A stretch of DNA of 64,000 nucleotides, taken from positions 31,390,222 to 31,454,221 of the forward strand of contig CM074195.1 of NCBI GenBank assembly GCA_037179385.1. The letters are read 5' to 3'. This DNA comes from Holothuria scabra. Its lineage: Eukaryota; Echinodermata; Holothuroidea; Aspidochirotida; Holothuriidae. The position numbers were made by a program, and so were the translations under genes. Every line of letters starts with the position of its first letter. Position 1 is the first letter of the stretch. This document shows, in pieces, positions 19,523 to 61,033 of the stretch. The notes beneath the pieces were generated by a model. The model saw only the letters and a program-made list of their open reading frames with translations. It did no database searches and was not told the origin of the DNA.

Positions 19523-20331
19523 TCAGAAGGATACGGTAGCGTAAAAGTGCCAACCCGTACTGCTACGAACTGACTATAACTGAGGCGAACTAAACTGTGC
19601 TATGGCCTGTGATACGTCGAACTCGAAGCCTAGGCTGGGAGGAAGGTTGAGCGGAAATGACTGATGGAAATGCAGCCCTGGATTTACAGACGCGAATATT
19701 GATAGATCTCTCGAAGATACTTGTGAGATCGTCGACGAGCTAAAACTTGGCCACGTGATGGTCTAGAAGTATTGAAAACGTAGGAAAGATTGCCGTTTGG
19801 TCGTTCCATGCACAATTCCGACCGCATTTTAAAAAAATCTCCACACCCGGCGGCGACGCCCCTCCCCCAATTGTTTTTTACCCCATTTTTTGGCGGACCC
19901 TCCGCACCCCCCCCCCCCTGGTGACGGCCCTGTTAAGGGTATACGCCGAACCCTGGATGCCGCAGAGCTAAGGCTTCTTCAATGTATTTTTGATGAACTC
20001 ACTAGTTAGGTTTGAAATTAAAACTAGATAACCTCATTTAAAGCATAGGTCCCATAAATTAATATTTTGAAAGCAAAACCGGGGGTGGGTCGGTTTCCTT
20101 CATTTTTATATAAAAGTAAGCTTCAAGTTCGGTACATGACTACGCACAAACAGTACTACTGTAAGTTTACTGTAAGTTAATCACTTTATATATCATGCGT
20201 ACATGCTTTTTTAACCAATCAGCTTACAAAACGTAAATTGAGGGAAGTTTGAACATGCCCACTTTTTCAACATCACAAACTCAAAATTGCTTGTGATTTA
20301 GACCTGTACCTATACCTGTACCTGTACCTAT

Positions 20332-21567: not shown

Positions 21568-21599
21568 TCCTGTCACTGATTCGTTTTTGTAAACCCTCC

Positions 21600-37812: not shown

Positions 37813-38193
37813 TTAACGGCGTCCGGTACCTCTGTGTACACCGCTGCCCAAGTAATATCCTCCGGAGATGTCCACGGGGTTATGGTACGACCTTTTGGCT
37901 GCGAGAGCATTCCTCAGTTCGTTTCTGACGTTGCGTTTGAGTGCTGCTCGTGCGTAGTAGTCTCTTGCGTCGTAAAGAGAATCGGCCGACCTTTTGCTTG
38001 GATAAAAACCACCAAATCCGTTTGAAAGTGGTTCAATGGGACGGTTCCATAGGAAGCTAGCACCACTCTTTGCCTTGTTAGCCAGGTACAGTTCGACCAT
38101 TCCGACGATATTGACTAGATCATCTTTTGAAACAGTAAAGTTATCGTCCATGTCCTGGATTGGCGCCTCGTCGTTGGTATTGTCTTCATCGCT
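37813..38193 (-). CDS. Putative neuropeptide/peptide-hormone precursor, exon 2
   Basis: This exon encodes residues 39-164 of a predicted secreted peptide precursor. It is preceded by a canonical acceptor (pyrimidine-rich tract then TTACAG, 38194-38199) in phase 0, and ends with TAA at 37813. An acidic stretch (SDEDNTNDEAP) and a helix-like segment (residues 64-78) come first. Then come convertase sites: Lys-Arg at 105-106, 124-125 and 138-139, and a terminal Gly-Arg-Arg at 162-164. These would release peptides of 17 residues (107-123), 12 residues (126-137) and 22 residues (140-161). The last would be C-terminally amidated using Gly162. A piece ending GFGGFYPS (before residue 105) may also be released. 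There are no cysteines. I do not recognise the family. The roughly 22-residue final peptide contains GGYYLGSG, faintly like the galanin/spexin GYLLG core, but this is weak. Without exon 1 the frame runs upstream through intron, which should not be translated. Confidence 0.78.
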   Translation of the reverse strand, partial: SDEDNTNDEAPIQDMDDNFTVSKDDLVNIVGMVELYLANKAKSGASFLWNRPIEPLSNGFGGFYPSKRSADSLYDARDYYARAALKRNVRNELRNALAAKRSYHNPVDISGGYYLGSGVHRGTGRR

Positions 38194-41158
38194 CTGTAAG
38201 AGAAGGAAAAAACAAATAATCATATGTATGGATTGTTTATTGTATTCGTACTCAGGTTGATAAGGATGTAATAATTTTTCCAAACCTCTGCACCGGGAGC
38301 AGTTGAGGACGCCAAAAATTTTACGCCGAAAAATGCATTGGGACTGAGTCGTTTGGGGCAGTGAAGAAGTTGCGATGCCCTTTTAAAAAATCAAGTTTCC
38401 CAAAACCTTGTCTAATTTTGTTTGTTCCTTTGCTGTATTTTTCCCAAGAAATTAATTTCCATACAATTTTCACTTCTCCGGATTGTCCTTTGTGATTACT
38501 AGTATTTTTTCCTCCTTCCAACGTTATCGGTTTTGTGTCCAGTGCATGTCGATGACGTCAAACTACTACCTCAATTTTTTAGCTTCTCCACATATGGTCA
38601 TACATATTTAAAAAGATGTTCATAGAAAGACGAGTGATGAATGATTGTTTTGACCGAACCCCATATTTTTCTGCGGCAAATGTCAATGTACACAATATAA
38701 GAAGGTTTTCATACAAAAAGCGAGTTCAATTATTCTTCGGCGCATGGAATTATAGGGTCCAGAAAGGGATACACAAACCGAGCTCAGCACATAGTGTACG
38801 ACGCTCCCCCTTTTTCGTGCAGTTAAGTGTATACAACACTGAGCATACATGTAAATCTAAGTGTATAGTCACTCCAAACGAAAATAGGGGTCTCAAACTT
38901 ACCCAACGGCGGATTCAAATGCAATTAACACCAAAAGGCAATTTAGTCATAGCCTACTGCACACTCGGAACCTCACTTAGAATTCCTCTTTATGTTATGG
39001 ATTAAAAAAGAATGATTTCCCCAAATTTTCATGTAAATTTTGGAATACGTGTTATGGGAGCTGGATTGGTTTGTTTATCCCGACGATTTGGAGGATGAAC
39101 GGATGTGCATAGCCCCCCCCCCCTCCTAAAAAAATACCTAATATAGCACTGATAAAAAAAACACAGTCGGGTAACATCTTGTCCAATACGATACAGAATA
39201 AACACAAAAAAGAAAGTGATGCTAACAGAACACGGAAAAACTGTTTTTCATCAGGCTTTGATAAACGATTGATATTCTTCGAGTATTTGCATCCGTCTTC
39301 GCTTTTTAAATTGTTTAAATAATTACTGACATTTTTCAAATCGATCATGTTTATTTGTACAGTCCTTTAGTTATCCTTCATTTTATTGCCAACTCACGAA
39401 TGTTGTGTAGTCAAGTCATGCACCTATACCGATGGCATCACGATGAAGCAATGACCAATTGAAAACTCACTCCCCCTTCTGTTTTTTTTTTTTTTTTCAC
39501 TTTTTCGATATTAAATGAGACAACCTTCAAATAGTTAACAGGTTAACAGTTTTATATTCCCTCTCATGATTGCAATTTAAAAGAAGGTTTAATGTCACGC
39601 CATGTTTTTATATGTAAGACGGGTTTTGTTCCTATTTCAATGAAATTTTCAGTGAATGAATCCGATGCGCGGTTCTCAAGATATGATCAAGAAACGTTGA
39701 CACATTTTTAACAAAAAACTGAACTTGAAGCGAGCACACGTGACATCTTATCTTTACATTTATTTACAATCAAAGTCAAACAAACCATTCCTTGTCAATG
39801 GAGGAAGTGATATAGCCACTGTTGCCCTCAAACTCACTTTGGAACACAAATCTAGTGACTGTTCTTTCGAGAAATACATCTCTGATGTGAATGGAAGTTT
39901 TACCACACTGTGCAGATTTGGTTCCTCTTCCACACATGAAGATTATTTTGCTTTCACTTCCTCTTTAAGTGGACTTTGCCCGCAGATTGACTGAAGACGG
40001 CCCCTCGAAATTAACGTTGGTACATGCATTCAACCTCTGGAAGCAATTCACAATCTTCTCAACTTTGAAAGAGTTCATTTGACCATTTCTTCGACAAAAT
40101 AAATTTCGTCAATTTCATTAATTGAGGCCAATTTTGCAAGAAAGCTCTAAAATATAGGGACATTTCACCTACTTTGCTCAGAGCTAAACGAGCAATTCTT
40201 GTCCTCGTTATATCTCAGTTATCTAAAAAGATGCAATTCTATAAAACTCTGAGAGTTTAAAAGCTGAGAATCGCAGTGCACTTACATCACGTTAGCTTCC
40301 CCTAAGGGTGGATAAACCATTTCATGACATTTTTAACTACACACAGTAATGAGTTAATTAAGATAAAAAGCGAATGTGTGCAACTTTTAAAATTTTGTTT
40401 CCGTTGGCGACCAGACGAGAATGTATATGGAATTTTGAAAGAGGCTTCTAGGGCTTTGGGTCGTTGACTGAGTGACCATTGAAGAAGCGAACAACACAAT
40501 TTAAAGGATAAACTTTTCAAGTCCATTTCTAGGAAAATGACCACTACTTTACGTCTACTGTACTTTTATTAAAATATTTCTCGGAATGCATGAAAGAAAA
40601 GCTCCATATGAGGTTGCTCAGAGGATTGTATGCCGTGGCTGTCTGACTGTTAAGGGCAGAATACTAAGCAAGGAACTGCAACTGCATAGGTAGACGTGTT
40701 ATAATTCGTTTACACTCCATAACGTCTCTTGTTTATTACTTGGGAGAAGTCTGCGACAAGGTCACGTACTTTTTGACAGGGCACAGAATCCGTGAGCAGA
40801 ACAGCCATCACAAGCTGCTCAAGGGATGAATAAGTCGTTGCCAAGATGACCGCCCCCAAATTGCTTTCTTTAAACTTTTGGGGGTTCTAGAATAAGGCTT
40901 TTAGACTGAAAGAAATGAGTAGTTAAAAAATTAATTTCCTGTTTTAAGTCTCCCTTGAGCCAATTAACATTGGAAGTAACAAAATAGCAAAGGCTTTCCA
41001 TGCTACTGCCATTGCTACAGAAAAATTCTTTAAAAAGTCGGCTTTGTTAAATCTGCAATTGAAATTTCCTTGTGTTATTTCCAGACTATGAAAAACCGTT
41101 GAAATTTGTTTTCACAAGTTATCACTTAACTGTGATGCATGATATACCGATATATTTC

Positions 41159-41324
41159 TGGTCAAATTTAACCAGGATTGTGGTCACCAATTATACTGAC
41201 ATACCGTCATATTTCATACTGACAAACCGTCATATTTCTTGATAAAACACCAAGATATATTAGTCGCTTCAACCAGGAAAAGTATGAAAATTGGTGACCA
41301 CAATTCTGGTTAAAATTTGACCAG
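41159..41324. repeat. Hairpin MITE with ~35-bp arms
   Basis: The left arm CTGGTCAAATTTAACCAGGA...GTGGTCACCAATT (41159-41193) is the reverse complement, with very few mismatches, of AATTGGTGACCACAATTCTG...TTTGACCAG (41289-41324). The interior contains two tandem copies of a CATACTGACAAACCGTCATA-like unit. It is non-coding and intronic. Confidence 0.75.
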
Positions 41325-41517
41325 GATGATTCTAGAGTGAAGCTTTTTTAAAATCAGATTAAGCGTTTTCTTAGTTTTTTACTGGTTGTCACTGGTAATT
41401 CTGACCATATCAATGGTGCTGTTTGGGTAATCCCATCATTTTACAATGAATCTGAATATTTAAGGTAAAATAGAAACGCTAAAATAAACTATCACAGCTC
41501 TTACTCTTATCATAGTC

Positions 41518-42038
41518 TTTTAATTCGACCAGGCCAAATTCTCCCATTCCAAACAGCTCCAATTCTCCTAACCTACTTACTTAAGCCCAGCTCCAACAAC
41601 TGTCTAAATTTCATTTTAATCCAGACACAAGGTCAGGTTATATTTCAGACTACTGTAAGTATGCAAGACCGACCTGCAGTTAATAACCAGAACACTCTCG
41701 TTAGATTACATCTGTAATATGAGGTACAATCTGTGTCGTTGCCAACGGGGGTGGGGTGGGGGTCAGACCCCCCCCCCCCGTGACCCAAACTTGCAATTCA
41801 AAAAACATCAGCGGTTTTTTTCTCACTATCCTTAAGACTTTTCCTCATTTCATGCAAACACCCCCCTCCCCATGACACCAACATCCCATGACACCACCCC
41901 CATGACACAATCCTGGCTACGCGCCTGCCTACAATACTCTGCATTTTTTTAATTTTCTGTCAATTAAAACATGACAACCGGAAATTTTGTGGGCATACTA
42001 CAAAAATTGTAATTTTGAGTGAGGACTGACTGCCTTTA
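41518..42038 (+). repeat. MITE family A, copy A4, decayed and interrupted
   Basis: The left half (about 41545-41700) contains CCAATTCTCCTAACCTACTT and ATCCAGACACAAGGTCAG. The right half (about 41950-42038) contains CTGTCAATTAAAACATGACA and TGTAATTTTGAGTGAGGACT. Between them (about 41725-41930) lies foreign sequence with a C run at 41767-41779 and CCTGGCTACGCGCC, the reversed end of the poly-G repeat type. Confidence 0.6.
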
Positions 42039-45000
42039 CTGGCAAAGCTTTCTCAACTCTGCCAATACTAGTTCTCAACTTTTACACCATGCACACATCT
42101 GCAGATAGGGGCCCTCTGTCGACTGCACGCACACATACCAGGGAGTTGCGTGAAGGAGTTGCTCTAGCAATTCACTGCACATACTAATACTGAAAATTAT
42201 CATTTTCTCTGCATGTTGGAGTCATCGTGACATTTCATCTCGATATCTATGCTTGTAACTGATAATATCATTGGTAATAACAGAAAACCTGTTTCAAAAC
42301 AAGGAATAAATTGGAAAAATAACCTTGAGAAATCAAGAGCGTGTGCAAGGAACTCCCTCTAAAATAGAAACTCACAAAGTCGAACTGAGCTGTTTACTGC
42401 ACAATATATCACCACGAAAAATATCCAAAGACAGAAGCTTCACTGCGTGGCGTATATTTTTATTCGGATGGCATAAAACATTGGTATGTGTGTGACCAAG
42501 CATGGGCGAAAAAGCGACTATTTTACATCAAACTGGGCAATTGAAGGGGTCATAAAAGTTCTTGCGCATCAAGCACAAGGCCAATTAGATCTACATCATG
42601 CACAAGAAATACATAATTTAATGAGAAAAGCATGCTGCGAGACAAATGTTTTGAAACGAAAGTAGAGTAAAACACGTAGCGTGACGTCCGGACGGAAGAG
42701 CTCAGAAACGGCAGAAATCCCGGCATTCCGTGTAACCACATTGCCCAGAATAAGAACGATATACTCGTTTGGGGTGATGTGAGAGCGCTGTGCTAAAAGT
42801 ACTCCGAGTAGCGCGCGGTGCGCGAGTAACATGCTGTTTAGAGTTAGTTATAGAGTTTCTATCTTCTAATCTATGCGAAATCTGGTTAGAATGATGACAA
42901 AGTAGGACAGCTCTCAGATTTCACTTTTGAATATTCTAGAGAACATTGACATTGTTAGCATAGAAGAAGTTGCTATCTTCCTGTTTCGGAGCAGGGTGAG
43001 TGTGCAGGGAGATATTTATGGGATCATGAACTTTTTGTTTCTCTCTTACCACGCCCCTGAGAGTCAGATGTCACTGTGATTGACTACCCCTCTTTTCCAT
43101 GTCTTAAAGGGGGAAGATACCATTAAAATGAAGTCACTAGATTAGTGTTTTTCGGAGGTAAATCATGAAAAATCGATTCATATCACTCATGAGTCACCCA
43201 CACATCCACAACAAACACCAAAGCACTTGATATAAAATGCATCACATGTAATATACAGGGGTTCTAGTCATGCCTCGTTTTTGTGAAGTCACGTCTTCAA
43301 GTAAAGTCCAGCTTCCTGGGTGAATTATTTTTTTTTTCGAGGAAGGTTGAGGACAGATCGTTTTATTTTATTTGATCTTATTTTTTTTTTTTCGGGGGGG
43401 GGGGGGTCGTTTCAAAATGAAGATGAAGCTTACATTTTAGGTTAGAGTTACGTAAACCAGGGATTTCTCCTGAATGTCGTCTTTCAATCCAGTCATAATT
43501 ATGGTTATTATTTTGGAAATAGAGGTGTGGCCTATTCCCGAGTGTTGGAATCCATCACTTTCACTCGTAAAATAATTACGTCTCCCGCCTTTAAGTTCAG
43601 GTATGCTGACGAAAATCGAAGTTTTGCCATAAAGTCGTTGTGCCATGCATTTGTCCAACAAAACGATATAACAACTGATATGATGATTATATCAGACAAA
43701 ATTAATTTAGTTGAGTATCAGTCGTTAGAACCGTAAATTACGGATTAATCAGAACCCTTCTTGTCAAGAGAGTGGATTCGCTAATTGGTTTTGCATGTCA
43801 CGCTTTGACTGTCGAAACAATACCAGCCTGCGTAGCAGCTCTCTGTGGCTTGTTATCATTTGGAATCCAGCGTTTTCTTTGAGCTGAGAGTACAACAACA
43901 GTTTGGGCCCCTGAAAGACTGAGAACATCAAGTTTTCAGACACAATCGATGCGGCCTGTGCAGCTGGCCGTAAGGTTTTATTCAAATCAGTGAGGCGTTG
44001 GACGGTGCAGGTAAACCAGTGACTAAATACTCGACTCTGTAGGGTATATTTCATAGGACAGTACATTACCCTTTATATCGCATGTTTTTCAGGTATTCAT
44101 GAGTATGCTAGGTTCAATCACATTGCTCTGCCAAAGATGACAATATCAAGCTATCTATGGATAACCTGCGTTTCTGGCTTTAAAATGGGAATCGTACTAA
44201 TAAAACCTACAGTAAAGAATATTTCTTGTCAAATGAGAAGGAAATCAAGCAAGTTCCTGGTGCACACTTCAATAAAATCAGAGTGTTATATTTGCATTTT
44301 TGTAAATCACTGTCAGGTAAGCGTCTAAAAATTATCCAACGACTTGTCCGGGCACGTAGTGCTGTTTGACCTTGCAAATCCATCTGCCCTATGATTTACG
44401 TAGTCTTTTACCACCATGCATGAAAAATGCAATCGCTTGCTGGTTTTTTACTTTTTGACTGATTAAATTAAAAATCTCTGCAAAACAAGATAGAAATTCT
44501 AAGTGTAGGTGGAGTATTTGGAGAGGTGCGATATGGATGTCATCAAGTATGTTTTGAAATGTTTTTGAGAAGGAAAAAGAGAACATGTTTAATGGTTTAC
44601 ATGTGCATGCTTACGTGCAAAACGTGATATGCCAATCTTCATACAATTGTGTTCTTGTAAACCGATAACTTTTAAGCTGGAGAGAAACAGTTAATCATTT
44701 TAATTGGGTCTCTACAATGAAAAGGAAACCATATGTGTACCGGATATTAAACTTCCATACACAACATTACCCTCTCCGGGAAGTTTTCATCCAAGACATA
44801 ATTACCCGGAAAAATTCAGCCGACGAAAATTACCCGTCGAAAACCTTCCCACGAAAATTTGGATTTGTCCTTGGTACAAAATTGTACAGGGAAATTGCCA
44901 GGATTGGCAGGTGGAAAACGTCCTCTCGGGCTCGGGAAAAAGTTCAGGAAACTAGTGTTGTCGTGAAAATAGCACAAAGAAGATTGTATGGACAATATCG

Positions 45001-46389
45001 TTGCTTTATTGGGCAAGTCACGCCCGTGGCAATAGGGTACTTTCACTGACGTCACAAGCCCCTCCCCTTTTGTCTGACAAAAAACTAGTATAGTACGCCA
45101 GCTAAAGTAACTAGCTGAAAGGCAGTTGGTGACCCACCAGTGACTGTTGCACTAAGACACACGTCGATTTTTGTACGGTAGTGGGAGTGGCTTACCAATT
45201 ATGTCACGTGAGAGCACGCCTTTAGGACTGGCAGCTTGGAGGGGTTCAGAGAGTCTTGCGTCAAACCTAAGAACAGTAAGGTGATACCGCCTCCTATGAC
45301 CGTTCTCTTCATACCTACTCACCTTGTTTCTTTGTAAAAAGGATTTAAATTATTTTGTTCTGTGTTAATTTATGTAAATTGAATTTGTATTACGTGACTC
45401 TAACACCTCTGCGGATATATAATGAAACTAAACTGACACCGAACATAGTTCAAGCGATAGCCTGCCATCATTTCCTCAAACTTTTCAGGCAATAAATGGT
45501 TGAATCGCACCGATTTTACAAACATATCACACATACTGGTCTACTGCCCTGTACTATACTGCCCTGTAGGCTAGAATTATACATGCTGCATCAAAAAACT
45601 AGTCATAAAAGTTATTGCTAAGCCACTATGTGCTGTGAATTGTATTTTTTCTTGTGAACATAAAGTTATCCAGCCTAACTTTGAATTTGTCATTGCTCTG
45701 TTCTTGTAAATCATGACTTTTAAAGATTCGAAATTTTCTGAGGTTTACACTTCAATTCAATTGTGAAACTATTCTTGTGAGGTTCGTTATTAAATGATGG
45801 ACCAAACTGGCGAATGGAAGCTTTGCATACTTAAAGAGGCACATTGAACAGTTAGAGTTGATATCTATGGCGTGTATAGCCAGGGCACTACCATAATTTG
45901 TCAGGATTCACATTCCAATAAAGTCTGGTCATGAATTTTGAAAACCGAATTGAACAGTTAATTGCTCATGCAGCCAGAAAGGTATTTGTTTGTTGCAAAT
46001 AAGGGTATGTAACTGTCAAATTTGGACCGATTGTACTTAGTAGGTCTATGTGAAAAAAGTAGAGCTTTGGAAGAATGGTGAATTTCGCAAACCAACTTAA
46101 AATGTGCCACTTTAAATCCTGGCTCAGTGAGGAAATTCGATTTACTCTTCAAGCTTCGATTTTCTTTTACGGTTTACCGGACTAACACTTGACCACTCAT
46201 CAGATCAGCGAAGCAGGTACTAACACTTGGTCAATTTTCCACCGAAAATGGACTTTTGACAAAAAGTTAAGTCCTTCCTGCCGGTCAACGTATCTGGATT
46301 TATATAGAACGGATAAGATTGGTGGCTTTCAAAGAATTGGATTCGCGGTGAGCCATATTTTTGCCGTCTTTCCTCAATTTAAAATCCAC

Positions 46390-46689
46390 TCAAGATGTAC
46401 CCTTACGTTGAAGTATGTAACCTAATAGCCTACAAAATTCAAGTGGACGGTTAACTATACGGCGACATATTTCTATGCAGTACCCAGTGCAACATCCATT
46501 ACCGCAGGCTACTTCTTTGTTAAATCTACAATATTTAGAACGGACAATTATGTAAATAAGACAATTAGATGAATAATTTGCTGATCGGCACAAACCACAA
46601 CTCTTTTTTCTATACCGCATTTGGGGCTGACTAATTTGTAGTCTTTTCGACGAAGATAACGAACTGTTGTCTCTATTTCTCGTAGCCAC
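46390..46689 (-). other. Cysteine-rich open reading frame, possible exon or chance
   Basis: This 99-codon frame has a concentrated cysteine pattern from residue 32 on: CGLC, then SNC, KYC, ACGNGCCTGYC and IEIC. The Cys-Gly-x-Gly-Cys-Cys motif is of a type seen in small membrane or secreted Cys-rich proteins, but I cannot match a family. A possible donor (CAAC then GTAAGG) lies near the 3' end, and weak AG acceptors lie upstream. It sits inside the long intron on the same strand. It could be an exon of an unrelated nested gene, a remnant, or coincidence. Confidence 0.22.
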
Positions 46690-47239
46690 GAAACTTCGCC
46701 CGTCCTATGGTCTGCTATGAGTGCAAAAAGTACATTACAGTGACTAAGTAAATGTTACGAATAGAACAAATAAGGTTTAGTTACATGAGATTTTCCGACA
46801 CCACAACAAGAATTGCGTTATATAAGTGTACCCTAGAAATGGAACGCCAAAATGTTGTGCTACGATTTTCTAAAAAGAGTAGAAATGGGGCCAATTTACA
46901 CTAAAATGTCTAGCAGGTAAATCCGGGAGTCATGTAAAAGAAATTCTATAATGCTCACTTTCCTTGGGAAAGCATAGAATAGGGAAAGAATCTCTCTGCT
47001 CAAATGGATCGGGTAAAGCATGGTATTTCTGGCGAATGTGGGAGAATTTTTAACAGTCGACGCAAATCTAACAATAACGGTGACAGAACTGCACAATATG
47101 GTCTTTAATCTTCTTCAAATAAGTTAATTACTAAGGTAAGTTTGACCGATGTGAACCCCAGCCAGGACTAGGGCTTGCATAATCAGATTATGCAGTATAT
47201 GATTAAGGATTATGTGACTGAAGGGACAATAATAATAAA

Positions 47240-47345
47240 GGTGGTGACTGATGGAGCGAGGAAGCTTAGCTGACTGGAGGTTCGGGGTTCAATTCCTAGC
47301 CGGATCAAAGTGGGGTGGGTTTTCCATCAAAGAGAAACAAAGGTG
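47240..47345 (+). repeat. Possible tRNA-derived repeat remnant
   Basis: A good B-box-like GGGTTCAATTCC (47286-47298) is followed by GGGTGGGTTTTCC, a configuration common at SINE head-body junctions. The A-box-like TAGCTGACTGG just upstream is too close for a true tRNA. Tentative. Confidence 0.3.
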
Positions 47346-47559
47346 TCCCCATCTGTCCTGTCTTTTACAAATGGCACCAGATTTGATCTAAATTGTTGAA
47401 TTGGTGGTTCACCAGACATCAAGTTGAAATTCACGGGCTGCAAGTTGGGCTTTAAAATCATATTTGCTAAGCAGCGCAAAGAAACTTATCCCCTTCAAGA
47501 TTTGTGTTTGTGAAGATTTTCATGCACAACACTGGATAGAGGTGTAAGGTATACACTGT

Positions 47560-47812
47560 AAACACAAATTAGTTAAACAGTGCCTGAAGTGACTGATCAA
47601 AGTAGTCAACAACAGAGACTAATATTTGACTAATATTTGACCCAGTTGAATAAGTTTCTAACAAATATTAAGCCATCTTGACTAAGTTTGGACTTCAGTC
47701 TATTACTACGAAATAAGTCAGATATCATCAAATACTAGTCAAATAAAAGTGGCTAACGTGGTAAGTCAATTCAGACACCAGTTAACTAATTTGTATTCAC
47801 TATACAATACGC
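47560..47812. repeat. TTAGTCAA palindromic MITE, copy 1
   Basis: The ends are inverted: ACAAATTAGTTAAACAGTGC with CTGAAGTGACTGATC on the left, and GTAAGTCAATTCAGACACCA then GTTAACTAATTTGT on the right. The interior is dense in GACTAA/TTAGTC motifs. A second copy is at 54212-54460. Non-coding. Confidence 0.7.
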
Positions 47813-48649
47813 CTATTTTGCATAAAGGAATTATGCTGTGGGTGTTGAGGTAGCGGGCGTAAAAAGGGGTCGCAAACAATTCATTTCCCCCACCCGCAAT
47901 TTAAACGAACTTCTCTTGTATCCACTGCCCGCACTGAAAAAACGACAACAAATGGAATGTTTTTCTTTGTTCAAATGTTGAAAAAATTGCATCTGAGGAC
48001 CCTTCAAATATATTAAGCGGTGAGGGGGCGAAAGAGAATGGGATTTTGTAGTGATGTCTTGAGATTCTACCAGAATCTCAGGGGTTAAAAATCGTAATAT
48101 TAGTTTTTTCCCAAGATAATGAATCCCAAATTAGGAAGAAAGCAAAACAGCTGAAGAAGTTAAAACATTCCATATTGAGTAATATGTATGCTGTACAGCT
48201 TAACGTCCATGGTTATGCACAGTAGCGAATAGAAATTTGTGGCCTCACTTTTCCTCAAAATTTTTAAATTTTACACTTTAGATTTTGACTATAATCAATG
48301 TGTCATCATGCGTTAATGGTTTGGTCGTGCTTCGCATTGCTCCTGTGCAGCAATTGACGTGAGGGGAATATGCTGAAATCCATTTCAAGGTCAAAACGAA
48401 AGAGCTTTTTTCTTTATCTCCGACTACCTGACAATACAACTGTCCAAAATCCAATTTAACTCGCGGATGCACTTCCGGTATCTAGAGTACGCAGAAGTTT
48501 TTGTGTGTAAGACTGACATTAGCCTGTACGGTTGGGAGACTTTCCCTAAACCTTCATCACCTACTTTTATCTTTTTATGTGGTATTTTGAAGCATGCAAA
48601 ACCTACAGCTGAGTAAAAAAATGAAATAATTGAAGACAGCTATTGATCA

Positions 48650-49063
48650 CGCCAAGGAGTCCCAATTCTCCAAACCTTCTTACGTCTAGCCCCTCCCACA
48701 CCCTATCCAAACACAGCCGTAGTTTATTACTTGATGGCATTCCCTGCAATGGTGTGTATAGAAGGTTCTGATGTTAATTACACTTTCGGCATATGGAATG
48801 TAATGTTATCGGTAGTTTTATTTTTCAATGTGATGTCAAATCAGCGAGCTCTGTCAATTTGAAATTTCTGTCAGTAGACTAACGATAAAATTGTAGTTAA
48901 TGGTGGCATATGATCACATGATTGTTTCAGGGTGAGTATACAAGAGCCCAAATGTGTAATAAAAACACTAAGTACTCTTCACTTTTTGAACTTGCTGTCA
49001 ATCAAACTGTTGTGCCAATTGAGGGAAAAAATTGTACTTTGGGATGAGATTTGACTGCCTTTA
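48650..49063 (+). repeat. MITE family A, copy A5, decayed
   Basis: Recognisable blocks are CCCAATTCTCCAAACCTTCT, GCCCCTCCCACA, TGTTTCAGGGTGAGTATACA and GCTGTCAATCAAACTGTTGT. It ends at GGGATGAGATTTGACTGCCT. An extra segment (about 48750-48920) that duplicates part of the unit separates the halves, suggesting two overlapping or nested partial copies. Confidence 0.55.
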
Positions 49064-51954
49064 AAGTAAATAACGGTGGTGGTACCATACTGTCTAAATT
49101 GGGGGAGGGGGTTACCAGGGACAACAAATGTTGGAGCAAAATTAAGCGCATGGGTGTCGTCCAGGAGAAAGACCCTTGTGGGGTCCAGGGAGCAATGGAT
49201 GTCACCGGAAGCTAAGAGGTGTTAGCACATATCTGGGTAAAAAGAGTAATATTATTTTCCTGATGACCTAACTCCTTACTGACCTAACTTGAGCAAATGC
49301 CCTCTTATGCCTTCTCCCGTTGAGTCGCCACTGGTAAATAGGGACACTTCTGTAAAGTGTAATTAGTGATAATGTCGTTTTTCCTCAAATCAAACGACTG
49401 GGTAACAATTCCTAACAAAATCGGTGTCAATGACGCTACATGAACCTTTTAAAAACTAGTTAATGGGTTCATAAGAATGATAAGATCAAAATGAAAACAA
49501 AGAATTGGAACAAAATCACGCCGGGGAATGGTTTACAGGAGTAATGGAATCTTGGCAGAAGCACGGGAAAGCAAAAAAAGCTCAACCGCAGCACCAAGGG
49601 GTAGACTAATGGCTCAATTAATCTCGTTTCGACATGGGAACTAAGCCCTCGGCGCTTTCAGTGACATAACGAGTTGCCATGTGAAAGCACTTAATTCATG
49701 TTTTATAGATAGAAAGGACAAATTGCCAAATTTTTGCTCGATCAGCCTAAAACATTGACATTTAAAGTTGTCTTCTAACAAAGGCTACAAATGAGTAAAG
49801 ACATTTTGTCACCAAGAAAGAGTGAAAAAGCAGACGTTATTTTTAGGGCTCATGTTACAGTACTTTGCAACAAGGTTAGGAATTAATGTTAACTGTAACA
49901 CTAAGATATTTAATTTATTAGTATGGAACTTCTGTTTTCTTCTTATCTAGTGTGATTCGTATTATTTATGTTTGATATTTTACTGTAAATGAAACTCTTG
50001 TTTCATTCATATAAAAATTGTTGAAAAAATCCTTTTGGATTTAATGAGGGGGTGGTTGCAGGAAAGGACCCAATTTGGTTAAATTGTACAAGAGCAAGAT
50101 TAATATTCCAGCATATGACTTTCAATTACTCAAAGTCGATGATTTAACCAAGAAACGTGACCGGGAATCTTAGTTGACCGGGGCTTATTTGGTTATTTTT
50201 TACCAAGATTATGTTTAAATTAAACAAACATTTTAAGTATGAAATTTTGTAATTTTTTATGGCTTCTGATGTTACATCATAAGTACCGTGTACTGCACGA
50301 GTGCTGTAAATAGGTTTATGCCTTCTGCTCATGTATGGTGCAAACACTCTAGCAACTCCAACCGCATGACGTCATATGAAAAACCATGCTAATTAAATGT
50401 TGAAAATACGTGAATATGAAAAAGATCTAAGTAATCAAGAAAAGTAACCATAATAAAGGTTTTTTTAAAGGGTTATTAGTGACTTCTTAGTATGACATGC
50501 TTGTTTTAACATGTACGCTGGGGCCTCAGCCCGCTAATGAAAAAAAAAAAAATGAAAACTTAAAAGCATGTTCAGTACTCCGAAAAGTGCGACTCCAAGA
50601 AGTGGCGTCAGCGGGAGAATTTGGAAGCGGGTGAAAAACTGCAAACATACTTTGATAATGGGTACATGCAGCTTAGAAAACTCGGGAAGGGAAGTACCCT
50701 TTCCGACCACCTTAGAAGGATTTTAATATCAACGTTTTATACACTTCGCTCCAACTGACTGTGGTGCTCACTAAAGATATTTGCTGGCCATCATTCCTCC
50801 TTCCCCTAATATATTTTTCCGACGTGCCGATACCTCACCAAGTGTTATTTTCACGCCACCAAGACTTTTTAAGAAGGACGGGGTTGTCAAGTTGCAGACA
50901 ACTGCCCGTTTCTGGGAGTGTGATTATAAAATATGCACTGTTAAAACACTGTTTGTAATACCTCTGTATATGGTTGTTCAAAAATTAGTTTTGTACTGAC
51001 GATGTTAACTAAACAGCTTTAGATAGTGCAACTGGAAAAAGATTGAGAGAAACAGCCCATTGAATTGTATTTCAGACAGCAGAAAATTCAATTTGGATAT
51101 TTACAACTGTTTGTTATGACATTGTAAGGAGCTTACTAACTTCCAGTTCGCCGTCCATGACCAACAAAACACCAGACATTCTACCCCACTCCCTGCTTAC
51201 TCCATGAAAATCACAAAAGATAGCCCAATTATTAAAACAAATCGTACGATTTTAGTCCAAACGCTCTTGAAAACTAGTAAAACACTCAAGGATTCCAAAA
51301 CACATTTTTACGTTTGTCTGAAGTACACATCCTTCGACATTGCAAACTTCGCATGAAACTGTCGTTTTGCACTTTTAAGAACCCCTTTAAATAGTGTTCA
51401 ATGTTGCTAGTTGCCCTAAGGTTAGAAACCCGTTTTTAGGAACGGTATAAATCACTTTACTTCCAGCACCTATCAAAGCGAATTGGAGCATATCGGAACA
51501 CACTTCGAAATATGACAACTTATGAGAAAATTTCTCATAGCGTTCATTTACGACAGATGTAAGTGCGACGTCACACTGTTTATCTGGATTGACGTTCATG
51601 TGAGATCGCGCCACAGGCGCTTGGTGATACTTAACATGACGGACAAAATTGTCAGGAGCGACCATATCGGTTTAAACATTGTACTTAGGGGTACAATGTA
51701 AACGGTAAAAGATACCTAAAGTGTTCTGCTTTTAATTCCGACCCACTTCTGAACATTCCCTTCACACCTCGATGTCCAATAAATTGCATGTTGTATTCCC
51801 CATTCGAGTCCTGTTTTATCACAATTACAGGTAACATGATTGTACAAGAGTTTGTCCCAGGGCTTAGAAAGGTTGGACCGAGAGTTAAATTTTGCTTGTG
51901 CTTTTGGGACCCATCCAGACTCAGTCATTAGCACGTCGCAGGGCAGTAAAATGG

Positions 51955-52165
51955 GCCATGTGCATTAACAACACATTGACGTCATCCTTGGGGAAAAAAT
52001 GAAACACCTGGCCGCACGCATAAGAATTCTCCCTGCAGATGTAGCAGGCTATGCGCGCATTCGACTGGTTGACAAATCAGTTGTCTGCATTTGGCTGTGG
52101 TGGCTTCACTTACCCTCAAAGGAGGGCGTACTTTCTGATCTGTGACGTCATATGCACAACGTCTA
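51955..52165 (+). repeat. Family D repeat, copy D1
   Basis: Continuous copy with TGACGTCATCCTTGGGG, CTGGCCGCACGCATAAGAAT, GTAGCAGGCTATGCGCGCAT and GGGCGTACTTTCTGATC. Matches lie at 35892-36390 (interrupted) and 63890-64000 (cut by the window end). It abuts MITE E2 on its right. Confidence 0.65.
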
Positions 52166-52353
52166 TAGCGAGCTCCAGATAGATTTAACGACGCGGACGT
52201 CAGCTACAAAGTAATGACGTCACCTCTAGCGTAGCCCATGTCCCTTAATTCTAAACTTGTTGTAGCGTTATTTCGCATTGCTTTCGAAATGGCATGTACT
52301 AAAACGTCACTTCTTGTTCATGAGGTCCGGTTCGTGAAATCTAAAGCTCCCTA
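52166..52353 (-). repeat. MITE family E, copy E2 (uninterrupted)
   Basis: It has TAGCGAGCTCC on the left and TCTAAAGCTCCCTA on the right, and contains TGTAGCGTTATTTCGCATTG. It is reversed relative to E1 (35090-35537) and lacks the nested element, so it serves as the empty site for that insertion. Confidence 0.7.
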
Positions 52354-52569
52354 ATTTCTTCCAGGGGACCAGACGAAGAAATGTTATGATGTGGATACCC
52401 ATGTTTACGCGCGCGTACAAGTTCTCATTGGTCATAGGCACAAATTCAAGGGAAATTTGTTCCCAGCATGCTAGTTCTGTTACTATAGATGCCTCAAGAA
52501 TACGATTTCACATTGCAAAGCCCTAACTCACACACTCCAGATTGGTAATATATAGACAATACGAACGAA

Positions 52570-53068
52570 AACTTAAATTTAACACAGAGTGAACTCTCAC
52601 TTTTCACCCTCTACGAAGGTGAAAAGTGGAAGTTGATCCCCATAAGAGTGTTATTCACTCCCAGAAGAATAAAATGAACATCAAAAGGAATGAAAATCCA
52701 ATTTTTACTATGTAAAGAGTGACAGCAATGGTTGATCTTTTTAAAAGAGTGATCACTGTAGGCACGCCCTTCAAGAGCACACGCGGATCCAATGGGTATT
52801 TTACGGCCTCAGCCCCCCCCCCCCCTTTTCGCCACAACAACATAGTAAAACATATGGGAAAGTATAAGTAAATTCTTTCACACTCCAGATTTCTCTTAAG
52901 TCAGTCCCCCCCTTGGAATGTCTGCATCCGTGTCTGAAGAGTGAATCTTCGCTCATTTTTTAGTGAATTTAAGTATTCTTGGAATGAACTTACAGTCTAA
53001 TTGAGTGAACTCACACTTTTCACTCTGTAGAGTGTATAGGTTCACATTTTTACTTCTAGAGTGTACTT
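52570..53068. repeat. GAGTGAA-rich inverted-repeat region
   Basis: The left part contains GAGTGAACTCTCACTTTTCA and GGTGAAAAGTGGAAGTTGA. The right part contains GAGTGAACTCACACTTTTCA and CTCTGTAGAGTGTATAG. Multiple GAGTG/CACTC motifs face each other over about 500 bp, with a C run at 52813-52825 in the middle. It looks like a foldback element related in style to 31518-32744, but its borders are unclear. Confidence 0.5.
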
Positions 53069-53596
53069 CAAGTCTGAGCTGAAAAATCGCACGGAGGAAA
53101 GTCCGTACACTACCGTTCCAGTCACTGAACCAATGCCTTGCAGTTCCCCCGTCTTGGGCCCCAACTTCATACGCCCAGGGCGACACGCGATGTCTAGTGG
53201 TGTAAATGTTATCGATTTAACTTCAACATTAAATCTGAATTTCAGTCTTCCATCTAAAATTCTCTCTTCTGTCCAGGTTAAACCCACAGAGACAAGACGC
53301 TTCTGAGATGGGTTTTTGATAAATTAAGTACCGGCACTAGTTTGCCACAATTTCGAAATATCGTCAAAACTGATTTATTGGGTTTTTGTTAAGGATTAAG
53401 CATTTCACCTACGCCTAGAAAATTACCAGAATAGTTTTCAAGTTTCCTTTGTTAGCTGATGAAAAAATAGTTGCGAGCGGCTTTGACCTATCATCACTGT
53501 TTTCAAAATCTGCTATGTACTTTAGTGCATGAGATGATGAAGAGATCACTCACGATGAGAAAGATTTTTCCGGCCTAAGTCGGGTCAGATGAGGGC

Positions 53597-53655
53597 GGTC
53601 GGGAGAAAAGAAGAGAAGAAAAGAGAGTAAAAGAGGAAAAATATCAGGAAGAAGC
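53597..53655. repeat. Polypurine tract
   Basis: An almost uninterrupted run of A and G (GGGAGAAAAGAAGAGAAGAA and onward) of about 50 bp. No associated element was recognised. Confidence 0.7.
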
Positions 53656-54211
53656 GCTCCTAGTTCAAACTAGTAACTATTTTGTATCTAGCTCACCCTC
53701 TGTACGTCTAAATCTTGCAAAGGAAAAGGACACTTCCACCTCTTGGACCGCTCCCCGAGCCGACGATCAGTCCTCATTTCATCCGCCTACCCATCTCCCG
53801 CCAAGATGCACTTCTGGTCACGCCCATGTAATGCAGTTGTCTTGATTGTGATACAGTTACCGATGAAGTTTACGAAGATGCGGATACAAAGGTATGCTAC
53901 ACCCGCATCTACCTATAGATTCCCTCAAAGGTATCCTATAAGTCCTAAGACGACCTAAACTGCTAAAGGTGCGTTCACATCAAATAACAATATGGCGCCA
54001 TGGGGGGAGTAAAGGGGATTTTTTCCGTGAAATTCTCAGAAATTGGCCCCTACTAGTACAGTAATGGAATAAAAGAGTCCGGCCGCAAAAGGCATTAACT
54101 TTCGACTTTATTAAGAACACACCTTACGGGTATGTGGTGAGTCCTTTTAAAAACCACTCCACTTGTATTACACAGATCTCCGTCCCAAATTAATTGAAGT
54201 CTTTTGCAACA

Positions 54212-54460
54212 CTGTAATCACAAATTAGTCAAGTGGTACCTGAAGTGACTAATCACGTTAGTCACTCACATTTGACTGAATTCTAATGATATCTGACTAA
54301 TTTCGTAGTGATGGACTAAAGAATATTAGTCAAAACTTAGTCAAGGGAAGCTTAATATTTAATAGAGACTAATTAAGTATAGGCCAAGTATTAGTCGAAT
54401 TTTGTTGACTAACGTGATTGGTCGATTCAGGCGCTATTTGACTAATGTTTGAAGGCTAAA
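54212..54460. repeat. TTAGTCAA palindromic MITE, copy 2
   Basis: It starts CACAAATTAGTCAAGTGGTA followed by CCTGAAGTGACTAATCACGT. It ends in GATTGGTCGATTCAGGCGCT and ATTTGACTAATGTTTG. The overall plan and motif density equal those of 47560-47812. Confidence 0.7.
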
Positions 54461-56129
54461 CTCGAAAGCCCTATAACATTATCTTAGATGTAAAACGATT
54501 AAATGCAAGCCTTTTTTTTAAGCGAGCCTAAAATGATTGCAAATTTGGCATCCATATTTCGTTCATGAATCCACCAGTCTACACCATCCTTACACTTTTG
54601 TCAATTGTTCACCAGGGTGGTGTCATTCGAACTGGTTGAAAACATTTTACATGCTGACATTTCAAGGGATTCGGTAGGTACATTTATATCAAAAACGTGT
54701 CAGCTGCATGCGTGCATGCGTACTTTCTGCAACCAAGAACAGTCCCACTACTTTAGTAGATTTATAAATAAAATGTATAGAATTCGTACATAGTAGCAGG
54801 CAGTCTATTTATAGGATCATGTTGTGATGATGAAGGCAATTCTCGGTGGGATTTGACAAAATTTCAATTTAAAAATTGCCTGGTAATTTGTGGAAAAAAT
54901 AAAATTCCTTGCCCAGTTTGTTTTCTCCTTTTAAGCTTTTGTCCCAAATGGCGTCTGAAAGGTCAGGTTGCTTTTTGAGAATTAATTGCAAAACACATTT
55001 TAGATTTTAGGCTTTAGTCTTGTGTTGCTGAAAAACATCGGGATGAAACCAAAAAGTATGATACTTTCCTCTCTTGAGCCAGGAAAAGGGATTAGAGTCC
55101 CTTAATTTAAAGTTACGGAGTAACAGAATTGCGAATTTCTAGAAAAGGGAACTCATAGCCCCATATTCAGAGAAAGTATCACCTACGCACACCACTAACT
55201 TTTAAATCGACTCAACTTAAACTAAAGGTATGAGCATTTTCTTCTCTAATTTTGAAGCATGGTTCAGATATCCTGGAAGAAAATCGTCAGGCTAATCGCA
55301 CCGCAATCAAGACGGCCATACGCCAAAGGGCAATGGCTCTTGCCCCTTTGTACCTATTCTATTTGAAACATTAAGTACGAGCGCCCTCTTTTAATCACCG
55401 TTCATTTCTGTGAACTTTTAAAAAGTCCACTCCATGCAACTTTACTCCGCTCCACCCACCTTCCTTTGTACGTGAAAGTGAATTTTCGCTACAAGACTGC
55501 AAAACGATCTGGGATTGGTGGGAGTGAGAAGCACGGATATTAAACTAACGTTAAATAAAAAGGAACAGTCAGTATTTGACGCAGACGATAAACCTTTTAT
55601 TCCTAAAACCATGATTTTTCCTGATTGTGCAACAGCATGATGTGGCGACAGTGAAGAGTTCTTTCAAGTTACAAAGGACATTAATGATCTTATCAATTAC
55701 TGTTGAAGGAAGTATTGTAAAATATTTGTGGTAGAAATTTCAAGTTTATATTACACGATGCAGCCTCCTTTGTAATTTGTAATTCAATCGTGGTGCACAA
55801 TTCTGATTGTCCCTTTTATGAGGGCATGACATAGCCTGAAGACCACCTTGGGCGGTTGGAATCATTTCAGACCAATAATGTTGTCGAGAAAATACAATAA
55901 ACAATATCTTTACTAGGTGTTGAATATGTAATCAATATAGGCGAATAGAAAGGCACGTCCGCCCATTGGTCTAGATATGGCATAGATAGGGGCAAAAAAG
56001 CTTTATGGGATAGCCAGGGGGAAATGTGTGTAGAAGAGAAGGAGAGATCTAACACGCCACGCGACGTTTAGACATTTAGTCATGTTACCTTTACATTAGA
56101 CGACGTGATCGCGGGAGTCCCAAACTGAA

Positions 56130-56250
56130 AATAAGGCAGTATGGTGGCCTTCTTTTCACGAAATAAGTTTCCCTCAAATAGAAAGAAATTCGGTTGCTTG
56201 TTGCAGAAGAATAATTTGTTCATCCAAACTTTCAACATTTCAAACGTGAA
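56130..56250 (+). repeat. Family G repeat, copy G2 (uninterrupted)
   Basis: Continuous from AATAAGGCAGTATGGTGGCC through AAATAAGTTTCCCTCAAATA to GAAATTCGGTTGCTTGTTGC and CCAAACTTTCAACATTTC. It shows the joined sequence across the point where the 1,227-bp element entered copy G1. Confidence 0.75.
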
Positions 56251-57221
56251 AAACCGAATGAAAAGTTTGCCAATCATTGCGTCGTAGAGCGAAGCTTCTG
56301 CGTGTACTACAGACTGACAGAACATTCAATCTCTTGGGAAACAGGGGGATAGGCGTTAGAATCATCAGCAGTAATTGTTTAAATATTTTAATATTATGTA
56401 GCTTCTAAACTATACCGTATACTCAGAGAGAAAGACCTACGTATCTATCAGCTCTGCTCCATGAGGAAAAAATGGCTGACAGATGCGTCGAGGAGAGTGT
56501 AATTAGATTCAGTATGTTAATTGAGTTAGCAGAAACCAAGATGGGAGCAGTTAGTACACTTGTCCTATATAAATATACAGATCATGTGTTTACCTACTGC
56601 GCTGGAAAATGAAATTCCGAACCAAGTTCAATCATACATACTGACATACTGTAGGCCAATGAAGTCATGTGTAAAGGAAGAAGAAATCTGAGAAACGCTG
56701 AGTTGATGCGAGTAATCACTTTTCCAAACGTTTTTGTTTTTTCGATATATTGCAATACAATCTGAACTGAGAATGTAAAATCCCTTCTCAAAGTACCTTT
56801 GACATAAAAAACATTCATGGTCGTCGTAATGTAAAAGTGTAAAAAGTTCGGCTACTACTATATGTGAAAGTGGAAGACAATATTTTACGACTGGAGTGTA
56901 CCATTCCTATTCATTACTCAACTATTTACCGTATTACTGTTATATTGAATTTTTGTGACATTATTAGAGACACTTTTTTGAAAGAGAAAGACGACTTGGG
57001 AAAGAAGACGGCTTGAGCATATTTTTTAAGTTCATCCTCTATAAATTTCGGGTCAAATTGGTGCAAAAGAATTCTGAATCTGGTGAAATGTCTAATACGA
57101 TTAGGTTAAAGAACAAAAGCAGTGACCCCAAACTTATTTCGAAGCAACTGCTAAATGTTAGTTTTCCTCTTATTCCTCTTTAAAACATCTTTCATAATAT
57201 TTAATGACTTCAGAATTACAT

Positions 57222-57367
57222 GTTAAAGGGAAACCAAGTAGTTACTTCTAGTAAATTTCACATTTTGAAGAGAAAAAATGTTGTCACATGAGACTCAACA
57301 GCCAATCATGAAACAGGACAGTTTACTTCACTACGTCAGGTTGAGGAGACTGCTATTCCCCTTTAAT
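57222..57367 (+). repeat. Family H repeat, copy H1
   Basis: It begins TTAAAGGGAAACCAAGTAGT, contains ATGTTGTCACATGAGACTCA and GCCAATCATGAAACAGGACA, and ends ATTCCCCTTTAA. The ends are short inverted repeats with TTAA (TTAAAGGG / CCCTTTAA), the same terminal style as families A and G. Confidence 0.7.
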
Positions 57368-57370
57368 ATT

Positions 57371-57628
57371 GAACCAAAGTCGTGTTTTTTTGTTTTTTTT
57401 TAAGAAGAACTTTATTCCCATCTTTGGAAAGTAACTTTAATATTTACAAGTATTTACAGCTTGATTAAATTTTACAGTGCTAAAATATTTACATGTTTAT
57501 ACAATTTTACACACATTTCACAGTACCAATCAAATCCCACAGAGGATCAAGCAAGAATAACTTAATACAAATAATCACATATCACAAACAAAAACGTTAC
57601 GAATGATAACGAACCAAAGTCGTGTTTT
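57371..57628 (-). mobile_element. Retroposed 3'-end insertion with 18-bp target-site duplication
   Basis: The direct repeat GAACCAAAGTCGTGTTTT occurs at 57371-57388 and 57611-57628. Between them, read on the minus strand, about 220 bp end in GGGAATAAAGTTCTTCTT followed by an A-rich tail (A9, C, A7). A polyadenylation signal just before a poly(A) tail and a long target duplication mark target-primed reverse transcription. It is either a 5'-truncated LINE 3' end or a processed transcript fragment; no coding sequence is left to tell. Confidence 0.85.
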
Positions 57629-57970
57629 ACATCATCCTTTTTCGGTCAATGGCCAATCTGACCTGGCTAAATTTTAAGCGGACGTGTATTGCACAGTTAC
57701 TAACTCGAAATGGTCTTTGGAAAAGAGAGGAACTGGGTGGAGGAAAAGCTTTTGTTCCAGATTGTATTTTTCACAACTTTTCCCAAAACGGGACACAGAA
57801 AGTGCTCTCCGTCCCCTCAAAACCAACGCAAATTACTTTTTAGTTTCCTTACTTAATAGCCAAGGGCAGTCCCCCAAACGTTTGGAAACAACGGCTCAAT
57901 CCCTAAACTTTCTTGCTGATTTCTCTTCAAAATTTCTTCCATCTATTTTACAACGTCAATAAAGATAATT

Positions 57971-58107
57971 CAAGGTAAACCAAGCAGTAACCCCTAGTAG
58001 ATTTCACATTTGAGGACAAAAAATGTTGTCACATGACTTTCATTAAGCCAATCATGAAACACAGTCTACTCCACTACTTCAAGTTGGGGTGACTGCTCTT
58101 ACCCTAC
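57971..58107 (+). repeat. Family H repeat, copy H2
   Basis: It contains GGTAAACCAAGCAGTAACCC, AATGTTGTCACATGACTTTC and AGCCAATCATGAAACACAG, and ends in GACTGCTCTTACCCT. It lies about 600 bp from H1 in the same orientation, but terminal TTAA is lost. Confidence 0.65.
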
Positions 58108-59299
58108 AAGGGTTGCAACACCTGAAAATGCCATTTGCAAAGGTGGAGTTGCTTTTTTTACTTCGGGTTCAATGTCTGCTTCCTACTCAGTCTCCCTTTA
58201 CCGCAACAAGTCATTCAAATGTGTCACGAATGTCTGGAAATATCAACATCACTTGTCGAAATTAATTTCACTAAGTTTGTTCCCTCTACTGATGACAAAA
58301 ACTTCACATGTTTAACATTTTGTGCAAAATAAACTTGTCCTGTCGTGCGCAGTGAGTGTATCAAAGTGAACGTGCAATCGTTACTAGCTACAAACGTTAG
58401 ATTGTTCAGTTCCAAGATTCTAGTTTCTTTTCTTTGAATACAAGTTTAATGATCTGTATATACAGTAACATAACCGACGCAATGCAAGTCTCCCACTTAT
58501 CAGTATCGTGATATGGTCACGTGATGTTTGGGTGGTGGGTAGGCTGCTATATAGCTTTCTAAAGGAGTTAACAGACTAAGTAACTGAAGTAACATGATGA
58601 AATTAAAAGTAAGTTGATATTGCATACGGTTGAGTGGGCAGAGCTGATAGTGCTATGTTAAGAACATTCAACAATATGCTAGTACACAGAACATGTATAG
58701 CCATAAGAACATGCACGGAATGAGTATAAACATCACCGTGTACAGCACGGCGGACGTTGTTGATAATGTTAACCCAACGTCCTTCGCAAATTGGAACATG
58801 GAGGTACTATCTCGATCCGAATAGCTGATCTGCACACATAGGCGTACCGGAGTCAATCTCTCTTGGGAAAGGGGCCATTTTTCCCAAATTGAGCCACGTT
58901 TCTCAGAAAAAACGGTACAATGATGTTCCTGACTGCTCCATTTGCCCACATTGCTCCAAGCAGTGGACACGTATACCCTACTCATAAGCTATACTTACAT
59001 TTAGCAGCTGGGGAAGACAGTATTTTAAGAAAGGCCAAATACGAATATTTTATTCCAAATTTCACCATGACAAAATTATTTCCTGAAAACTGAACAAGAT
59101 GAGAAATTACCCAAATAAATAATTCCGTTCATGGCGTTTACGGTCTTTCCCATGGCCGACAGTATCCCTAGGGTTTGTGAAGTCGTCAGGGTAGACATTT
59201 TCCCTCTCCTTGTGAAGTCAGTCCGTATAATTTTATTTTACCTTGTAGAAGTGCGCTTTCATTTCTGTTCTTAGTAGTTTTTTAAAATAAAATTCATTT

Positions 59300-59596
59300 A
59301 AAGGTGAATTATTTCTCACACCATACAATTTCAATTCTCCCAACAGTCTTATTTCTAACCCCTCCCACAACTGTCTATCTTTAGCTTATCCTTATCCAGA
59401 CACTATGCTGTAGTTAATTGCCTTAGGGCACCTTGGTGAGTATACATGGCCATTATGTGCAATCATAACACCCTCGGTGCATGATGTGTAGTATATGTTT
59501 CTCTACTTTTTTTGAGTTTGAGGTCAATCAAAGAGCTGTTCCAATTGAGAATTTCTGTAAACTACCGGTGAGTTTTGGATGACGAATGACTGCATT
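59300..59596 (+). repeat. MITE family A, copy A6, decayed
   Basis: Blocks CAATTTCAATTCTCCCAACA, CCCCTCCCACAACTGTCTAT, AGACACTATGCTGTAGTTAA and GAGGTCAATCAAAGAGCTGT follow the family A order. The ends have degenerated (ATTTCTCACACC...GACTGCATTAAAT). Confidence 0.65.
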
Positions 59597-60286
59597 AAAT
59601 TTGAACTGACGCTAATTTCGCTAAACCACAGAAGAAGAAACTATTCACAGTGACGACATACAATACACGATATATAATCAATTATTTACACGGACTAGCC
59701 GGGAGACAGAAACACCCCTACCAACGTCAGGTATAGCCTCTGTGATCACAGCTAGGCCTCGGAACTCTGTGATCACGAATTCACCTATATCGGGCAGACT
59801 CAAGCACGAATGCATTCACTGCATACTTCATCAGTCATATGTAAATAAACTTTTCTACTCATTCAGTACGCATTGCTGGGATTTGAAATTAAATGGAATT
59901 ACGGGTAGTAAATTTTTAACGTATAATTTCAAAGAGATTGCCACGAGCTTTTGAACTGGATCAAAGACTCAAGAGCCCCAATCATGTTCTCAACTGTAGG
60001 GGCACACTCTGACAACTCTATTATTAGAGTGATAAAAGCCCTGACCTAAATGATATATTCCTACGTAATCTGCAAAATACTGCACCAATCTTAATCCAGA
60101 AATCCTTAAAAAAAAAAACTTCATGGAATGGTATATTTGAGTGTCAAAATTTGTGCTAACTTGGAATCAATGCCTGAAAGTGACCTATCGAAAAGTCTCC
60201 ATAAAATCGACAAGAGTTGGGTAGGGTTCTCCCTTCTTTTAGTCCCCCTAAATTTAACCCTAAGCTTCAAGTTTAAGTGTGATTTT

Positions 60287-60397
60287 AGGTCACCTATTCT
60301 AGGAGAAAATGTTGTCAAATGACTCTCAAGAGCCAATCATGAGACAGGACAGTGTATTACCCTAATGAAGTCGGGGTGGCTGCCTTTTTCCCTTTAA
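60287..60397 (+). repeat. Family H repeat, copy H3
   Basis: It contains GGAGAAAATGTTGTCAAATG, AAGAGCCAATCATGAGACAG and GGGGTGGCTGCC, and ends TTTCCCTTTAA. It lies within the intron, less than 200 bp from exon 1. Confidence 0.65.
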
Positions 60398-60583
60398 ACA
60401 TGTGAAACTCGGAATGCGAGTGTGAACAATTTACGACAGACCTTTGATGTTTCTGTATTTTTTTCTATAATTTTCCTCCATAAACCTCCCGGTCAACCCC
60501 CTCCCCCATCTAAACGTATATTTTGGACAAGGAAATAAAAACGTAGGAATTTAAATTGTAGAATAAAAAGATAGATTGCTTAC

Positions 60584-60697
60584 CTCTGGAATATAGTTGT
60601 CCCCGTCCAAAGCTCGTGCTTGCACAATGGTAGGTACAACTGCGTATAAGGCCAAAATCACAAGCCAGACAAAGGATAATTCTCCGACGTACTTCAT
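60584..60697 (-). CDS. Putative neuropeptide/peptide-hormone precursor, exon 1 (signal peptide)
   Basis: This exon encodes residues 1-38, starting at the ATG at 60697 in an AGAAAATGA context. Residues 1-27 form a classical signal peptide: a short N-region with Lys2, a hydrophobic core (FVWLVILALYAVV, about 9-21) and a likely cleavage after TIVQA, giving mature RALDGDNYIPE. The exon ends in GAG followed by the donor GTAAGC, phase 0, matching the phase-0 acceptor of exon 2 at 38193. A signal-peptide exon separated from the peptide exon is typical of neuropeptide genes. Upstream lie a TATA box at 60865-60872 and a CCAAT box. The pairing with exon 2 is inferred from strand, phase, composition and absence of another partner. 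Confidence 0.75.
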
Positions 60698-60864
60698 TTT
60701 CTCTTAATACTATTTAGGTGCTGCGATAATTATTTTTTAAATCTAGAAAACCCAACTCTTGTCGATCTGTCTTACGTCTTTGGTACGACGTTTGCTTAAT
60801 ATTGTCGAGTCTGTGAGCTTAGAACTTGTTTAACTCAATGATTAGAAACTCTTCAAAAGCTTAT

Positions 60865-60872
60865 CTTTTATA
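60865..60872 (-). promoter_or_regulatory. TATA box of the peptide precursor gene
   Basis: The minus strand reads TATAAAAG, about 170 bp upstream of the ATG. A start near 60842 (context ATCATTG) would lie 30 bp downstream and give a 5' untranslated region of about 145 nt without needing another intron. Confidence 0.55.
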
Positions 60873-61021: not shown

Positions 61022-61033
61022 GTCATTACGTCA
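61022..61033 (-). promoter_or_regulatory. CRE-like site
   Basis: The minus strand reads TGACGTAATGAC, a near-consensus cAMP-response element, about 150 bp upstream of the TATA box. The identical 12-mer occurs on the plus strand at 61248-61259, in inverted orientation. CRE sites are frequent in neuropeptide promoters; a role here is inference. Confidence 0.35.

Follow-up and report, generated by a model that had tools for sequence, protein, structure and literature searches.

Gene structure at the locus

The window, which is the whole 64,000-nucleotide stretch of Holothuria scabra DNA that we analyzed, carries a gene of two coding exons on its minus strand. Exon 1 (60584–60697) is 114 nt in length; it begins with the ATG at 60697, its final GAG codon ends at 60584, and it is directly followed by GTAAGC. 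Exon 1 encodes residues 1–38, comprising the signal peptide (residues 1 to about 28, as judged by inspection) and the start of the acidic propeptide, and these 38 residues align without any gap to two related proteins, P0001 and P0002, that are described below. Exon 2 (37813–38193) is 381 nt in length and runs from 38193 to the TAA that ends at 37813. It encodes residues 39–164, which include the rest of the acidic propeptide, the segment of residues 81–104, three Lys-Arg sites and a terminal Gly-Arg-Arg followed by the stop.

The two exons are separated by an intron of 22,390 bp (38194–60583, minus strand), which is of GT-AG type and phase 0 in nature. The acceptor side of the intron is formed by a pyrimidine-rich tract with CAG at its end; the sequence directly 5′ of exon 2 is TTTCCTTCTCTTACAG. 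Splice sites on the minus strand of the window were scored with an approximate consensus matrix written by hand; of 3,716 GT sites so scored, the donor came 4th, and so did the acceptor among 3,660 AG sites. The only coding intron sits after residue 38, exon 2 is uninterrupted, and the joining of the two exons in phase 0 gives a single frame of 164 residues. The initial annotation had described a signal-peptide exon and a distant exon, joined through canonical phase-0 splice sites into a 164-residue product; re-reading of the sequence showed its coordinates to be exact.

In the alignment, both P0001 and P0002 are continuous across the residue position of the intron, so that the junction is read straight through in the relatives. 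The P0001 cluster stands for three member sequences from 10 contigs, none of them longer than 3,074 bases, and the single contig of P0002 measures 1,296 bases. These contigs are too short to hold a 22-kb intron, which lends support to the exon junction. Drawn from relatives, the comparison supports, indirectly, that exons 1 and 2 would be joined in RNA.

Organization and conservation of the precursor

The Lys-Arg sites of the 164-residue protein are located at residues 105–106, 124–125 and 138–139, and Gly162, Arg163 and Arg164 directly precede the stop. They delimit three predicted peptides, all on the minus strand: residues 107–123 (37939–37989), residues 126–137 (37897–37932) and residues 140–161 (37825–37890). 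Gly162 would serve as the amide donor of the last peptide, with the Arg163-Arg164 pair behind it. The three Lys-Arg sites, the Gly-Arg-Arg-stop and the three peptide ranges are as the initial annotation gave them. The region between the signal peptide and Lys80 (residues 29–80) is acidic, with Asp or Glu at 14 of its 52 positions.

We compared the window protein with P0001 and P0002 in a three-sequence alignment. K105 R106, K124 R125, K138 R139 and G162 R163 are unchanged in all three sequences, which supports the earlier reading of the product as a secreted precursor with dibasic processing sites. The signal peptide is nearly invariant (26 of 28 columns), and the acidic stretch is invariant in 32 of 52 columns. 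Among the predicted peptides, residues 126–137 have 11 invariant columns out of 12, residues 107–123 have 14 out of 17, and residues 140–161 have 14 out of 22. Variation is concentrated in the acidic spacer and in the C-terminal peptide. Since its conservation (14/22) hardly exceeds that of the acidic spacer (32/52), the amidated peptide may not represent the principal active peptide of the precursor.

The segment of residues 81–104 (37996–38067, minus strand), which lies between Lys80 and the Lys-Arg site at 105–106, is invariant in 20 of 24 columns. Lys78 is found two residues before Lys80, ahead of this segment. Residues 81–104 could form a further, fourth peptide, provided that Lys80 serves as a monobasic cleavage site; prediction from dibasic sites misses it. 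At least three peptides had been proposed by the initial annotation. The three ranges hold, but this conserved segment was passed over. The structure model of P0001, built with a three-row alignment, has a mean pLDDT of 38.7 and is uninformative either way.

Probable orthology to neuropeptide 37

The joined product was searched against about 5.8 billion proteins; 103 candidates were obtained, and two proteins matched at E up to 10. P0001 is 165 residues in length and shares 83% identity with the window protein over 99% (E 5.2e-88). Its name in UniRef is 'Neuropeptide 37', from Holothuria leucospilota (A0A5B8X9Q6). P0002, which is unnamed, is 164 residues in length and shares 81% identity over 99% (E 5.6e-82); the layout is common to both proteins. 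The initial annotation recognized no known family and suggested a new or lineage-specific gene. The protein search it had proposed instead returned a known precursor, A0A5B8X9Q6. 'Neuropeptide 37' is a depositor's label that already stands in UniRef and nr, and the precursor is not a new family; the lineage-specific part of the suggestion fares better, being compatible with searches of limited reach. The label presumably originates from Chieu et al. 2019 (Gen Comp Endocrinol 283:113229).

Compared to neuropeptide 37, the window protein has the same length to within one residue, a nearly identical signal peptide, and the same Lys-Arg sites and terminal Gly-Arg. Two differences were found: the window protein lacks two residues inside peptide 107–123, and it ends in GRR, whereas P0001 ends in GR. 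In the genome of the window itself (1.19 Gb, 31 contigs; E up to 10), a single match was obtained for exon 2 (2 candidates scored) and a single one for exon 1 (1 candidate scored). The window itself lies in contig 17 of this assembly. With one genomic match for each exon, no paralogue was seen in this genome. We consider it highly probable that the gene is the orthologue of H. leucospilota neuropeptide 37 and encodes a secreted, dibasically cleaved precursor. The analysis thereby adds a gene structure to the deposited 'Neuropeptide 37', consisting of two coding exons, a 22-kb intron and a single genomic match per exon.

Proposed processing and function

Cleavage at Lys-Arg sites and amidation from a following Gly are part of established prohormone processing. 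By analogy, the transcript would join the signal-peptide exon to the single exon that bears all the peptides, and the precursor would enter the secretory pathway. Prohormone convertases would cut at the three Lys-Arg sites, the terminal Arg-Arg would be trimmed, and the last peptide would be amidated at Thr161 from Gly162; the acidic stretch of residues 29–80 would act as a spacer. One or more of the released peptides would then act as a neuropeptide through a putative receptor. Expression in H. scabra, cleavage, amidation and receptor action are all predicted. That neuropeptide 37 acts as a neuronal signal is likely, in our judgment.

The same family of secreted precursor might alternatively give rise to non-neuronal products, such as peptides with an epithelial, gonadal or defence role, in which case the label 'neuropeptide' would derive from the layout alone. 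This possibility overlaps with the orthologue reading. Among the matches listed by our literature searches, there was no paper on the function or tissue of neuropeptide 37, and none of them gave functional or tissue evidence that would speak for the neuronal role; the phrase 'neuropeptide 37' was absent from the matches listed, 'NP37' was likewise absent from the papers matched, and the three peptide strings of the precursor were absent from the article texts searched (text only, figures lying outside the search). The conserved Lys-Arg sites and the terminal Gly-Arg behind an acidic spacer are, however, the usual layout of a neuropeptide precursor. As for defence peptides, many antimicrobial peptides are strongly basic, which the predicted peptides here are not; residues 107–123 carry 3 acidic and 2 basic residues, and residues 126–137 carry 1 acidic and 2 basic residues. 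We therefore regard non-neuronal products as improbable.

Comparison with known peptide families

The precursor could also belong to an older family, for example of GYWKDLDNYVKAHKT precursor, NPY/NPF, PDF or PrRP type, and have diverged too far for simple searches to recognize it. In the parts examined of a 2019 survey of neuropeptide precursors of A. japonicus (PMC6586643), the GYWKDLDNYVKAHKT precursor, which gives rise to a myoactive peptide, was the best candidate; as given there, it is 161 residues in length and encoded by two coding exons, so its similar length and its two coding exons are features in common with the window gene. The peptides of the two precursors are also loosely alike. 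P0004 is an A. japonicus protein of 161 residues; because it contains GYWKDLDNYVKAHKT and has the same length, it was taken to be the precursor that is described in those parts of the survey. In P0004, the 15-residue peptide lies in the N-terminal half, with a single Arg on either side, and no credible sequence similarity was seen. BLASTP of P0004 against P0001 gave E 0.43 at best, and hhalign of P0004 against the three-sequence profile gave a probability of 0.1%; orthology to the GYWKDLDNYVKAHKT precursor was rejected on these grounds. A MAFFT alignment of five sequences was also made for this comparison. When GYWKDLDNYVKAHKT was planted in the window protein and the result was used as query, two A. 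japonicus proteins were recovered, with E 0.034 and 0.045, and P0004 is one of the two.

We also performed 21 shuffle tests, in which seven peptides (NPY, PYY, PDF, GYWKDLDNYVKAHKT, GN19, MS21 and PrRP) were each compared with the three proteins. Five of the 21 values fell below 0.05 and are nominally low: those for NPY with the window protein (0.0085), P0002 (0.011) and P0001 (0.0205), that for GYWKDLDNYVKAHKT with P0001 (0.0365), and that for MS21 with P0002 (0.044). By eye, residues 102–135 look loosely NPY-like. The lowest value, 0.0085, is one among 21 tests, and its alignment falls in the acidic spacer (residues 39–53), outside the suspected region 102–135; we take the other four to be noise, given that 21 tests were made and that the proteins are related to one another. 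None of the seven peptides was counted as a match.

According to PMC7314547, NPY/NPF genes have as their hallmark an intron that splits the codon for the peptide's C-terminal Arg. Such an intron is absent here, exon 2 being uninterrupted, which speaks against NPY/NPF membership as that source defines it. The best local alignment to NPY lying in the acidic spacer, and Pfam showing no family for the product at E up to 10, similarity to NPY/NPF was rejected as well. Taken together, these comparisons make descent from any of the older families very improbable. The 22-kb distance between the exons might suggest that unrelated open frames had been paired by chance. This reading is refuted by P0001 (E 5.2e-88) and P0002 (E 5.6e-82), full-length relatives that span the junction, and its probability is negligible.

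A search with the three-sequence profile returned the same two proteins only, among the 7,998 candidates with the most shared words; as this search depends on shared five-residue words, distant relatives may escape it. In the PDB sequence search, only weak matches were obtained (best E 0.33). Within the limited reach of the protein and profile searches, a lineage-specific origin of the precursor would be compatible with these results. We put forward, as a tentative and rather doubtful proposal, that neuropeptide 37 originated in Holothuria or close relatives of this genus, yields up to four bioactive peptides, including residues 81–104, and has a receptor of its own. The conserved segments that the three-sequence comparison brings out are worth synthesis and testing.

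Flanking motifs and other elements of the window

Upstream of exon 1, we noticed one TATA-box-like motif, TATAAAAG (60865–60872, minus strand), which starts 175 bases upstream of the ATG. As a motif match, it would place a presumed transcription start near 60839 and give exon 1 a 5′ untranslated leader of about 142 nt. The sequence from this presumed start to the start codon contains in-frame stops but no further ATG. Further upstream, about 336 bases from the start codon, a CRE-like motif, TGACGTAA, is located at 61026–61033 (minus strand), with TGACGTA starting at 61033. On the other side of the gene, the first polyadenylation-type hexamers after the stop, as motif matches, are ATTAAA (37121, 36776 and 36452) and AATAAA (36514 and 35713); others follow farther on.

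No Rfam family at the gathering score and no tRNA were found in the window. A second LINE-like remnant (27975–29798, plus strand) has a match to the PF00078 reverse transcriptase in the frame 28673–29071, and its frames at 27975 and 29295 are without Pfam match. The first such element, a remnant of a non-LTR retrotransposon, is located at 20302–23131 (plus strand); its matches to the PF03372 endonuclease and the PF00078 reverse transcriptase are spread over three separate frames, and the third of them falls below the cut-off of Pfam. A large inverted repeat is found at 11606–14964. Its arms are about 1.11 kb in length, 98% identical over 1,110 alignment columns, about 1.15 kb apart, and rich in tandem units of 19–20 bp; it looks like a foldback-type DNA transposon.
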